A stretch of DNA of 64,000 nucleotides from Pseudomonadota bacterium (GTDB taxonomy: Bacteria; Bdellovibrionota_C; UBA2361; SZUA-149; DAOLCO01): positions 62,001 through 126,000 of the forward strand of contig JAIYCX010000012.1 of the NCBI GenBank assembly GCA_027487795.1, in the 5' to 3' direction. The notes beneath the pieces are model-generated. The model was given only the letters and a program-made list of their open reading frames with translations, searched no databases and was not told where the DNA came from. Every line of letters begins with the position of its first letter. The stretch's first letter is position 1. The position numbers and the translations under genes were made by a program. Below are positions 3,568-53,981 of this stretch, piece after piece.

Positions 3568-3870
3568 ATGCCTTTTTTAATTCTTGGATATGACGGAAAA
3601 GATGAGCAAGCATTGGATAGACGTTTAGCCGTTAGGCCAGATCATATTAAGCTTGGAGATCAGTTAAGAGAACAGGGCAAGGTACTTTATGGTGTTGCAA
3701 TGTTAGACGACAACAAAAAAATGATCGGTTCTGTTTACGTTGTAAATATGGATACTCGAGAGGAAGTGGATAAGTATTTAGAGACAGAGCCCTACGTAAC
3801 AGGTAATGTATGGCAAAAGATTGAGGTACTACCTTGTGCCGTTGGGCCTAGTTTTCTAAATCTAAAATAG
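3568..3870 (+). CDS. YciI-related small protein, 100 aa
   Basis: Short alpha/beta protein that fits the YCII-related (dimeric alpha-beta barrel, ferredoxin-like) family. It has an N-terminal beta strand FLILGYDGKD, then a central AVRPDHIKLGDQLREQGKVLYGVAMLD with the conserved His of YciI proteins and a G-rich strand, then GSVYVVNMDTREEVDKYLETEPYVTGNVW. YciI-like proteins are small cytosolic proteins of mostly unknown reaction; some act in halogenated-aromatic metabolism. The ATG at 3568 follows AGGAG (3551-3555) and is the only sensible start. It is monocistronic. It could equally be called an unknown stress-responsive alpha/beta barrel protein. Confidence 0.8.
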   Translation: MPFLILGYDGKDEQALDRRLAVRPDHIKLGDQLREQGKVLYGVAMLDDNKKMIGSVYVVNMDTREEVDKYLETEPYVTGNVWQKIEVLPCAVGPSFLNLK

Positions 3871-4041
3871 GTGTTTTGATTTCAGTGTCGCACCAATTGG
3901 TTTTTCTACTTCGGATGTAATTTCACTGCCGAAATCAGATAATTAACAGAATAAATACAGGTGCTTGTATCTAAATTCCTGATTTTTTGCCTATAAGCAA
4001 AAAATCTTGCTTGTTTTTTTGCTTTATGGTAAATTTTCAAG

Positions 4042-7348: not shown

Positions 7349-7499
7349 AAGCTCAGGGTCTTTAAGTCTCAATGGGCGGACTTCGAGGAAATTTTTTTCC
7401 TCAGCTATATTTAGCTGAAAAAATTTGCGGCACCTCGGAACTGCATTCCAGGTGGAATGCGTGAGAATGAGCCCAGTGAGACTTAAAGACTCTGAGCTT
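7349..7499. repeat. Cruciform intergenic repeat, copy 1 (reverse orientation)
   Basis: Arms 7349-7377 and 7471-7499 are 29 nt each and complementary at 27 positions. Between them lies the conserved core on the reverse strand: the AT hairpin (AAATTTTTTT ... AGCTATATTTAGCT ... AAAAAATTT), the block GCACCTCGGAACT, and the GC hairpin GCATTCCAggtGGAATGC. It is placed between two convergent genes. Confidence 0.85.
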
Positions 7500-26895: not shown

Positions 26896-27058
26896 GTTTA
26901 GAAAGTTTTGGTCTAAATATGCTGATTCTCACGCATTCCACCTGGAATGCAGTAGCCTTAAAACTTAACAGTGGGCTGCCGCAAATTTTTTCAGCTAAAT
27001 TTAGCTGAGGAAAAAAATTTACTTGAAGTCCGCATATTTAGACCAAAACTTTCTAAAC
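26896..27058. repeat. Cruciform intergenic repeat, copy 2 (forward orientation)
   Basis: The arms 26896-26922 and 27032-27058 are 27-bp perfect inverted repeats with a sequence unlike most other copies (GTTTAGAAAGTTTTGGTC...). The core has the GC hairpin GCATTCCacctGGAATGC and the AT hairpin (AAATTTTTT ... AGCTAAATTTAGCT ... AAAAAAATTT). The block between the two hairpins is replaced by a longer variant containing AGTAGCC...GGGCTGC. Confidence 0.85.
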
Positions 27059-27120
27059 TTTAATCAACGAATATTTCAACATATAATATTGAAAAGTATT
27101 AATAAAAAATTAAGTGATAA

Positions 27121-27278
27121 AATAAGTTCTGAACCCTTAAGTTCTAATCGACGGACTTCGAGCAAATTTTTTTCCTTAGCTAAGTATAGCTGGAAAAAAT
27201 TTGGGGCACCTCGGAACTTGAGTTCCAGGGGAACTCGTGAGAATGAGTCGATTAGGACTTAAGGGTTCAGAACTTATT
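27121..27278. repeat. Cruciform intergenic repeat, copy 3 (reverse orientation)
   Basis: The arms 27121-27151 and 27248-27278 are 31 nt with a single T/G wobble. The pairing can be extended to about 27115 and 27290 past a 2-nt bulge. The core is as in copy 1 but with GAGTTCCaggGGAACTC as the GC hairpin, a compensated change from the usual GCATTCC/GGAATGC. It lies 62 nt from copy 2 in opposite orientation. Confidence 0.85.
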
Positions 27279-27309
27279 AGATTTTATCAGTTAAAGAACC
27301 TAAAGTTTC

Positions 27310-30486: not shown

Positions 30487-31224
30487 GTGTTAGCTAAAAT
30501 AGAAGAAACTATTAATAGTCTAAGCACTAGATTATTCAAGCAAGGGGTTATTCCTAGTGATAACTTAGCTACTTTAGTTAGTTCTACTAATATAGAAAAA
30601 TCTATTCAGTATTTTGAGCTATTAGAGAAGTGGAATAAAACTCACGATCTAGTAGCTCCTGCCAGTGTTGATAAATTAATAGCAGCTCATTTTATTGATT
30701 CATTATCTGCTTTTGCAGTTTCATTTAACGCACAGATATTTCCAAAAGATAGCAAAAGTTTAATCTATGCTGATATTGGTACAGGTGGTGGAATACCGGG
30801 AGTATTTTGGCATTTGTTTTTTAAAGATATGCTACCGCAGGTTACTCTAAGCTCTTATTTAGTAGAGCCTAGAGAAAAGAGGATTTCATTTTTAGAAGAA
30901 GTAAGAAGACAAATAATTCCAGAGATAAATGTTTTTAAAGGGAATTTTACGGAATTTGTAAATCTTCTAAATAAAAAAGATCAGATAGAATCATCAGATA
31001 TTATATTCAGCTTAAGAGCACTTAAGCCTGAGAAAAAAGAATTGAAGTTATTTGATTCTAGTTTTAATCAGTCTCCAAGTGGGGCAGTAAGCAAAGCAAA
31101 TATTATTTGGTTAGCGGGATTAAATTCTGAATATGATGAAACTTGGTTTTCTCCAAAAATTAATTATTTTATTAATGAGGATGGGAGTGGGAAGAGAGTG
31201 GTACTTTCTAAAGTTTTGTTTTAG
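30487..31224 (+). CDS. rsmG: 16S rRNA (guanine-N7)-methyltransferase RsmG
   Basis: SAM-dependent methyltransferase for m7G527 of 16S rRNA. Conserved features are the N-terminal EKWNKTHDLVAP, AAHFIDSLSAF, the SAM motif YADIGTGGGIPGVFWHLFF and EPREKRISFLEEVRRQI. The start is GTG 30487, 4 nt after the mnmG stop with no clear Shine-Dalgarno of its own, so translational coupling to mnmG is likely. At 245 aa it is about 30 residues longer than typical RsmG. The TAG stop (31222-31224) overlaps the left arm of cruciform repeat copy 4. Confidence 0.92.
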   Translation: MLAKIEETINSLSTRLFKQGVIPSDNLATLVSSTNIEKSIQYFELLEKWNKTHDLVAPASVDKLIAAHFIDSLSAFAVSFNAQIFPKDSKSLIYADIGTGGGIPGVFWHLFFKDMLPQVTLSSYLVEPREKRISFLEEVRRQIIPEINVFKGNFTEFVNLLNKKDQIESSDIIFSLRALKPEKKELKLFDSSFNQSPSGAVSKANIIWLAGLNSEYDETWFSPKINYFINEDGSGKRVVLSKVLF

Positions 31225-31377
31225 GAGTACCGAACGATTGAGTCTCAATCAGCTCATTCTCGCACATTCCACCTGGAATGTAGCTCCGAGGTGCCGGAAA
31301 TTTTTTCAGCTAAATATAGCTGAGGAAAAAAATTTCCTTGAAGTCCGCTGATTGAGACTCAATCGTTCGGTACTCCT
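31223..31377. repeat. Cruciform intergenic repeat, copy 4 (forward), also likely terminator of mnmG-rsmG
   Basis: The arms 31223-31253 and 31347-31377 are a perfect 31-bp inverted repeat starting inside the rsmG stop codon. The right arm is followed by a run of T. Each arm also contains its own palindrome (GATTGAGTCTCAATC on the left). The core has ACATTCCacctGGAATGT and the AT hairpin. Placement and T-run suggest it ends the mnmG-rsmG transcript. Confidence 0.9.
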
Positions 31378-31471
31378 TTTTTATTTTTTTGTAAATTTTA
31401 GAAAGATATTTGAAAAGGACAGAAGATGTAGGTTGTTGCCTGCATCTTTGCCCGTTTGCACGACAATCAAT

Positions 31472-38803: not shown

Positions 38804-38970
38804 ATTAATTAATTTACCCAGATTCGGTTTTGAGATTATAATTAATCAGAAGATGAATGGTTAATCAAGTTGTTTATAAATTAACTTTTATTTCTCTCAC
38901 ACGGCTCTTCTCTAAATACTCAGTGTGAAAAAAATAACTCATATTCGTCATTTCTAGCCACCCGAGTTTC

Positions 38971-39109
38971 GAACCCTTAAATCTTCCTAACCTCATTCTC
39001 ACGCATTTCCGCTGGAAATGCAGTTCCGAGGTGCCCCAAATTTTTTCTAGCTAAATTTAGCTAAGGAAAAAAATTTGCTCGAAGTCCGGTTAGTAAGACT
39101 TAAGGGTTC
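38971..39109. repeat. Cruciform intergenic repeat, copy 5 (forward orientation)
   Basis: The arms 38971-38992 and 39088-39109 (22 nt, two mismatches) belong to the GAACCCTTAAGTCTT arm family. The core has GCATTTCCgctGGAAATGC and the AT hairpin (AAATTTTTT ... AGCTAAATTTAGCT ... AAAAAAATTT). It lies in the 917-nt gap 38709-39625, which holds this repeat, a second long inverted repeat (39289-39454), the leader of the AAA operon and no supported gene. Confidence 0.85.
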
Positions 39110-39288
39110 AAATCTCTTTTAACCCCTCCTTCATCTTTATAAAGAGCCAACAGTTTATTTCAAGTTATCATAGGTGTGGCACTATGCGAAGCAACATTGT
39201 GCCAAGATACTTCTAATTTAATTGTTAATATAGGAGTATTTAAAAGCTTAGAATATATTTGGTAAAGAAAATGAAAAATAAAGAAAGA

Positions 39289-39454
39289 GTGAGCGTGAGC
39301 CGATAATGCTCGTTTGCAGACCCGTAGGGGTTGGCTTTGGTGGAGGAGGAGCAATTAGGCTGGAAATTTTTTTGCTATGCAAAAAAAATTCTTTGCAGAC
39401 TAATGCGCGGGGAGCTTGCTAGGGCAAAAACGAGTATTATCGGCTCACGCTCAC
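39289..39454. repeat. Unrelated 166-bp long inverted repeat with nested hairpins
   Basis: The arms 39289-39317 and 39424-39454 are complementary over about 27 nt (GTGAGCGTGAGCCGATAAT...), with one wobble and a 2-nt bulge. Inside, GCAATTAGGCTG/CAGACTAATGC pairs imperfectly around an AT hairpin GAAATTTTTTTGC-tat-GCAAAAAAAATTC. The architecture is like the cruciform family, but the sequence is not. Confidence 0.8.
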
Positions 39455-53592: not shown

Positions 53593-53636
53593 AATCTAAG
53601 CAGCTTTTTTGTAACCTTTAACTATTCCCCCAACCG

Positions 53637-53784
53637 AGTTCTAAACTCTTAAACTTTCCTAATCTCATTCTCGCACATTCCTCCGGAATGTAGCTGCGAG
53701 GTGCCCTAAATTTTTTTAGCTAAATTTAGCTAAGGAAAAAAATTTACTCGAAGTCCGATTAGTAAAATTCAAGAGTTCAGAACT
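53637..53784. repeat. Cruciform intergenic repeat, copy 6 (forward orientation)
   Basis: The arms 53637-53664 and 53757-53784 (28 nt, four mismatches) belong to the GAACCCTTAAGTCTT family. The core has ACATTCCtccGGAATGT and the AT hairpin. Unlike copies 1-4 it lies between two same-strand genes, upstream of the HD gene. Confidence 0.85.
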
Positions 53785-53918
53785 CTCCTCCCCTCTCTTT
53801 TATTGTTTTATTAAATACTATGCAACAGTATATTCATTAATGGAGTTCTTACTATTTCTTATGTGGATTATCTCTATGTGCGAGTTGAGGAGATTGTTGA
53901 AATATTTTCGAAAAACTT

Positions 53919-53960
53919 AATTGATGAAATAAGTTCAGACCCCTTAAGTCTTGATCAATC
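53919..53960. repeat. Solo arm relic of the cruciform repeat
   Basis: AATAAGTTCAGACCCCTTAA, then GTCTTGATCAATCGA, closely resembles one arm of copy 3 (27121-27151). No core or partner arm follows. It lies 22 nt from the end of the Nudix-like gene. Confidence 0.55.
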
Positions 53961-53981
53961 GAAATTTTAGTGAATAGTTGG

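Follow-up and report, generated by a model that had tools for sequence, protein, structure and literature searches.

The six repeated elements of the window, a stretch of 64,000 nucleotides (G000:C67:62001-126000) in a 3.2-Mb draft genome of 71 contigs from an uncultured bacterium, belong to a dispersed family of foldback modules that is real and, as judged by the lack of a match in the libraries searched, previously undescribed. A covariance model trained on 43 copies found 58 strong copies in a search of the whole draft genome, inside as well as outside the window. Our preferred reading, which in its entirety we consider about as likely to be right as wrong, is that these are the foldback modules of a non-autonomous IS66-type MITE family, that they act as terminators for inward transcription, and that their core is older than the carrier.

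All six elements proposed in the first-pass annotation were recovered in place, with covariance-model bounds a few bases off at most (Table 1 gives these bounds for the last two). The shared core and long inverted arms described there also hold, in the form of a ~95-nt core inside ~29-bp arms. Over 29 bp the arms of modules 1-6 show 2, 1, 1, 0, 4 and 4 differences, and the folding z-scores of the six elements range from -7.0 to -14.7. A scan of the window for 26-bp arms with at least 24 positions paired and 70-120 nt apart recovered four of the six elements and one other, at 39289-39454; arms of this kind numbered zero in ten Markov-resampled windows. The core of module 2 is a variant in which ~16 additional nt separate the P2 hairpin from the CTGCC block. 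Module 6 lies in a longer unit (53611-53980), which has a GTAACCTTTAACT end and also contains what is left of a second module, without its core.

Table 1. Foldback modules of the window and associated features; the strand of a module is its folded strand.
Feature	Position	Strand	Score (bits)	Arm complementarity	RNA z	Remarks
Foldback module 1	7349..7499	+	165.6	27/29	-9.6	P1 arms, P3 AT hairpin, P2 GC hairpin; in convergent gene gap
Foldback module 2	26896..27058	-	118.5	97%	-11.6	Left half of divergent pair
Foldback module 3	27121..27278	+	162.5			Right half of divergent pair
Module 3, P1 5' arm	27121..27152	+		97%		Partner 27247-27278; P1 covaries in 43 copies
Module 3, junction strand GGACTTCGAG	27153..27162	+				Near-invariant alignment columns; CGG(A/T) also in relatives
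Module 3, P3 AT-rich hairpin	27163..27203	+				Flanking pair of columns 40-81 covaries CG/UA/GC
Module 3, block CTCGG-P2 hairpin-GTGAGAATGAG	27210..27247	+				Best-conserved part of the family; found in six genomes, 0 with the reversed pattern as control
Foldback module 4	31223..31377	-	172.6	29/29	-14.7	Directly 3' of rsmG-like gene 30487-31224
T-rich tract	31378..31392	+				Directly after module 4, on strand opposite to folded one; terminator-like
Foldback module 5	38964..39116	-	160.6			
Foldback module 6	53636..53785	-	152.3			Left-end type
IS66-type terminal inverted repeat GTAACCTTTAACT	53611..53623	+				11/13 to GTAACCGTTCACT; 26 bp from module 6 end
Right-end module remnant	53931..53980	+				5' arm AAGTTCAGACCCCTTAAGTCTTGATC, no core; right terminus remnant AGTGAATAGTTG at 53969-53980

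The family had been thought to match no described one, and Rfam bears this out: at gathering and permissive thresholds it returned microRNA-type chance matches only, none above the gathering score. Plasmid and phage collections gave no match. A scan of IMG/VR gave ten matches, all without the P2 hairpin and judged to be chance, and a scan of named genomes with the inner-core pattern gave two chance matches, inside genes or without a hairpin. The idea of terminator palindromes matched by a bare core, with the arms coming from the target, was dropped because in this genome the arms follow a common family consensus.

The additional scan hit at 39289-39454 belongs to a second, unrelated foldback family, which has 27-bp arms (GTGAGCGTGAGCCGATAATGCTCGTTT) that are 96% complementary, its own AT hairpin in the core and an RNA z-score of -9.2. 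This family has ~22 copies in the genome, many of them 88-93% identical including the arms, and is likewise without a match in Rfam.

Each module consists of the ~29-bp P1 arms, an AT-rich hairpin (P3), a GC-richer hairpin (P2) and three junction strands. The P1 arms are complementary within a copy and differ between copies. Across the 43 copies, 96.2% of the pair cells are standard and double-sided changes occur at 37 of the 57 pairs, a level of covariation that was reached in none of 500 shuffles. An isolated pair (columns 87-124) covaries perfectly over these copies (C-G 36, G-C 4, U-A 3); next to it are three pairs that hardly vary and two bulges of 3 nt.

The fold also reveals a strand. 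The side-by-side pair in opposite orientation stands as first described, but the strand with conserved folding is the reverse complement of the one on which the first-pass annotation had written the core. Read on this strand, the P1 mismatches are G-U in 46 cases versus A-C in 2, and the same strand folds more stably in 42 of the 43 copies (mean -71.2 versus -64.7 kcal/mol). The strand bias of wobbles and folding indicates that the folding of one strand, as RNA or as single-stranded DNA, has been under selection. Changes unique to one copy are without such a bias (G-U 4, A-C 2, other 12), which suggests, on small numbers, that selection is exerted chiefly on spreading lineages. Among the three options first offered (MITE, structured RNA, chromosome-organising element), that of a structured RNA is supported by the covariation, by the G-U-only intermediates on one strand and by conservation across bacterial families.

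Template-switch correction of near-palindromes is a known mutational process, and arm complementarity could in principle be kept by such switches alone, without selection. We regard this as barely credible, since it is refuted in the main by stepwise change and the G-U bias. Double changes rise with divergence from 21% to 84% of the changed pairs, and between close copies most differences are single steps, many of them G-U. This rise points to stepwise compensatory change rather than instant palindrome correction, and the excess of G-U over A-C mismatches likewise argues against template switching.

A DNA-level site for chromosome organisation or recombination (a cruciform, BIME-like or attC-like) is very improbable as well. 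Copies are unevenly spread, with 10 on C67 (148 kb) and 11 on C60 (178 kb) versus 3 on C33 (565 kb), in what base composition indicates to be one genome, and the cores at locus L011 can flip in place; beyond the uneven distribution, the option as first proposed found no support. A double-stranded cruciform would not be expected to tolerate wobbles on one strand only, and copy number varies from 1 to 58 between relatives. A mixed genome bin was rejected as the cause of the uneven density, as the sampled stretches have one tetranucleotide signature (L132 is mostly N).

The recently moved copies lie within larger units. In these, the modules are placed 25-26 bp inside IS66-type MITE termini (GTAACCGTTCACT ends) that are flanked by 8-bp target duplications, and the usual layout is one module per end in inverted orientation, which explains the side-by-side divergent pairs. 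Module pairs are homologous over about 400-490 bp. Ends resembling GTAACCGTTCACT (at least 10/13) were found outside 12 of 48 modules, 10 of these ends lying at a distance of 24-26 bp, and no such end was seen on the inner side of a module; further ends of this type occur at contig-end copies, and no terminus was recognisable at the other 36 modules. The pair at L026 is inside a unit of 607 bp; both ends of this unit read GTAACCGTTCACT, one of them with a single change, and its duplication (CTCTATTA/CTCTACTA) matches at 7/8. A 451-bp unit at L154 has lost its left module between two ACCCC repeats and retains a perfect 8/8 duplication (TTAAAAAA), so that a unit can perhaps move with fewer than two modules. 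The duplication at L113 (GTGAAAAT/GTGAATTT) is 6/8. One unit is split between contigs C9 and C27, whose ends hold its two halves, with a 7/8 duplication (CAGACATT/TAGACATT). A longer unassembled IS behind these contig ends was rejected, because the end of C9 and the start of C27 fall on adjacent positions in the 607-bp unit of L026; the breaks fit a short unit. The same kind of ends also bound a module-free 145-bp MITE at L149, with an 8/8 duplication (CAATAAGA).

Members of the IS66 family make 8-bp target duplications. Published IS66 ends start with GTAAGCGTCC or GTAACCGTCC (PMC12888890). In this genome an intact IS66 is present at the end of C15 (L110:2830-5205), with tnpA, tnpB and a 521-aa transposase; it reaches the contig end, has the ends GTAAGCGG / GTAAGCGGTT and is without modules. 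A putative remnant of a transposase lies between the modules of L035, where the frame NNLTERILRPIVTVRKIL gives a weak but well-placed Pfam match (E 0.025) to the C-terminal part of an IS66 transposase.

The absence of a target duplication, as first described, does not apply to the intact units, given the 8-bp duplications in L154, L026 and L113. Of the three options the MITE is the best supported, by GTAA ends at a fixed offset of 25-26 bp, 8-bp duplications, the IS66 remnant and the lack of coding capacity. Size and copy number fit a MITE (units of 451-607 bp, solo modules of ~150 bp, 58 modules, all non-coding), inverted ends are present in the intact units and target duplications only in units with both ends, and the GTAA termini with 8-bp duplications are those of the IS66 family. 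The intact units match IS66-type MITEs in the features that could be tested; the solo copies, most of which have no ends that could be found, and the copies of relatives, which are without recognisable ends, are not assigned there. We infer that recent copies in this genome move, or moved, as IS66-type MITEs mobilised in trans, most likely by an IS66-type transposase acting on the termini, as the intact IS66 in the genome has similar ends.

Module-free 145-bp MITEs with GTAAGCGTTCACT-type ends were seen at L149:1030-1174, L150:1594-1738, L148, L151 and L152.

The search of relatives added 11 modules from four genomes of three other families in the same order; the source genome's own family is represented by one genome. 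In these modules 92.1% of the cells are paired and double changes occur at 48 of the 57 pairs, figures that lean towards the model because the alignment was fitted to it. The motif CTCGGARC-hairpin-GYGAGAATGAG was present in six genomes from the phylum, one of which (G040) belongs to another order, and a reversed control gave 0. CGG(A/T), CCTCGGARC and GYGAGAATGAG are conserved across relatives, and arms and P3 vary freely. Divergent pairs recur at L053 and L057; the wobble bias is absent in relatives (9:9). A search for IS66 transposases found none in the element-bearing genomes G005, G009, G011 and G012 (G011 and G012 are incomplete), and GTAA ends were found at the modules of no module-bearing relative. 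Since relatives keep the core without a detectable IS66 transposase, the module probably predates its present IS66-type carrier or was acquired by it.

In relatives, modules next to parB (G011) and to parA/rsmG (G012) suggested a link to partition loci. This link was rejected, as the parB genes of the source genome have their closest modules at distances of ~16 kb and ~6 kb. At L057 (G012:C19:839-1090), the 250 bases between the paired modules look structured themselves and have no match in Rfam.

The solo modules and tight pairs of relatives, without IS66 transposase or recognisable ends, could also mean that the module (P1 to P1') is an independent mobile element, spreading perhaps as RNA or single-stranded hairpin DNA, which IS66-type MITEs picked up. 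We hold this to be possible but rather unlikely. The module-free MITE at L149 and wobble tolerance on one strand only would fit such an element, as would the near absence of correlation between arm and core divergence (Mantel r 0.09, p 0.09), as if cores had been exchanged between loci; in one example the cores have 3 differences and the arms differ by 59%. Core divergence saturates, which in itself weakens the correlation, so that saturation explains part of this pattern and core exchange could account for the rest. Moreover, no precise module insertion or target duplication was seen around a solo module, and Y1 (REP-type) transposases do not track module presence. An extended version, in which the module is a self-spreading structured RNA or hairpin DNA that depends for its spread on an RNA-level activity of its core (protein binding or catalysis), whose arms are free to change if paired, and which transposons adopted at their ends, seems unlikely to us.

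Solo modules are over-represented in convergent gaps, where 11 of 24 lie, versus 25 of 170 gaps of at least 30 bp at baseline (p 0.0009), and pairs are mostly between co-directional genes (9/11); gene-gap classes are from simple ORF calls, without a gene finder. Modules commonly have their outer edge 0-40 nt from a stop codon, and so do those of relatives, one of which has a module 24 nt behind a tRNA-Leu gene. In the inward reading, a tract rich in T and poor in G comes after the stem (over 48 copies, its first bases have a T fraction of 0.62-0.75 and a G fraction of 0.02), and the outward side of modules is not T-rich. From its sequence and its placement behind stop codons, the module in the inward reading looks like a terminator. 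The newest copies, in gaps right after genes, are likely to be read-in terminators and mRNA structures. The module would then insulate its carrier against transcription entering from a neighbour, and host genes would have come to use it as a terminator. The G-U bias is on the outward strand and the terminator-like T tract on the inward strand, which speaks against our preferred reading.

Alternatively, the modules might be working RNA structures of the host, as 3' ends or 5' leaders that perhaps bind a protein, with the junction selected locus by locus. The same placement is seen in several genera: modules follow stop codons or a tRNA gene, and divergent pairs stand between co-directional genes. 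Such pairs lie within trpB-trpA, between a hydrolase and a methyltransferase gene, and just upstream of a trpE-like gene. In the operon-like settings (trpB-pair-trpA and hydrolase-pair-methyltransferase), only 17-90 nt separate the outward module from the following start codon, and the next gene would be served by a promoter inside the pair or by read-through. The near-invariant junction strands and the lone covarying pair of columns 87-124 would also be expected under a host function. Yet the genes behind outward modules (TrpA, TrpE-like, methyltransferase, pyrophosphatase, NADH dehydrogenase subunit, PIG-L) have no common pathway, which argues against a riboswitch or leader, single-copy changes are not biased towards pairing, and several copies are broken by deletions or a second MITE. 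We consider a host function in place decidedly unlikely.

In the preferred reading, the elements are ~150-bp foldback modules of an IS66-type MITE, normally one per end and inverted, at a distance of 25-26 bp from its termini in the intact units. The outward-facing strand, for which strand bias and covariation were found, would be transcribed and fold as a three-way junction that has a long stem and an almost invariant core, and transcription entering from a neighbouring gene would meet the long stem and the T-rich, G-poor tract and stop. Units would survive in gene gaps close behind stop codons, later losing ends, cores or one module to leave solo modules, and the core would be older than the present carrier.

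Several loci illustrate how copies decay. Core-deleted copies occur at 53931-53980 of the window and at L016/L122. Three modules (L041:1835-2229, L120:1259-1635 and L122:1318-1695) carry an insert of ~260-275 bp in the P3 hairpin, with TACCCCTCTTGATAT...ATATCAAGAGGGGTA-type ends (TACCCCTATTAGTAT at L041), which is probably a second, TA-targeting MITE that prefers this hairpin. The core deletions and P3 inserts show ordinary transposon ageing. At L011, the modules at 1361-1516 and 3774-3928 are 97% identical and opposite in orientation while their right flanks are direct repeats, which implies that cores can flip in place between the arms; DUF5677 and other small genes lie between these two modules. 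C-rich direct repeats (ACCCC, CCCCACC) are present on both sides of many left-end-type modules (L010, L022, L026, L035, L039), and one such pair forms the deletion endpoints in L154. These repeats might be what is left of an ancient duplication made when the module itself was inserted.

The units resemble IS66 elements and MITEs in their GTAA(C/G)CGT termini, 8-bp target duplication and IS66 transposase remnant. They differ in that published IS66 ends are not known to carry a foldback module, the intact IS66 of this genome is without one, and relatives carry the module without IS66 transposase matches. For SPRITE of pneumococcus, to our knowledge no conserved three-way-junction core is known. 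SPRITE is similarly a dispersed repeat with a terminator-like structure (PMC10969869), but from an unrelated lineage. YPAL/RU-2 of Yersinia is likewise a ~168-bp intergenic palindromic mobile repeat with its target beside dyad symmetry, and may affect the RNA of upstream genes (PMC2229807). In contrast to our family, neither a three-way junction nor covarying arms have been reported for it, its duplications are 3-26 bp and it is not known to form inverted pairs at transposon ends. Correia/NEMIS elements of Neisseria are ~100-155-bp intergenic MITEs that can invert in place and carry promoters (PMC10969869; PMC2229807). They have 24-bp inverted ends, whereas the arms of the present family vary freely and pairing alone is kept.

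REP/BIME/REPIN sequences with RAYT share palindromic repeats, inverted pairs and a location in gene gaps, but REP/REPIN are 20-40 nt long with a GTAG or CGTC tag (PMC3733652), compared to a module of ~150 nt. An explanation by RAYT/REP was rejected, since a Y1 transposase was found in none of the element-bearing genomes G009, G011 and G040, and some were found in G002, G003, G006 and G007, in which the search detected no module. Integron attC sites (RYYYAAC/GTTRRRY ends in a cassette array) were rejected too, because the arm ends vary (GTTT...AAAC or other) and no arrays were seen.

In most repeat families the terminal sequences are kept and the middle drifts. In the present family it is the arms that drift, with pairing alone kept, and the inner junction that is almost frozen, across several bacterial families. 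The more than 50 copies in one genome form a natural data set of unusual cleanness. With it one can ask if a structure carried by a transposon acts at the RNA or the DNA level, and if insulators carried by transposons later become the terminators of host genes.
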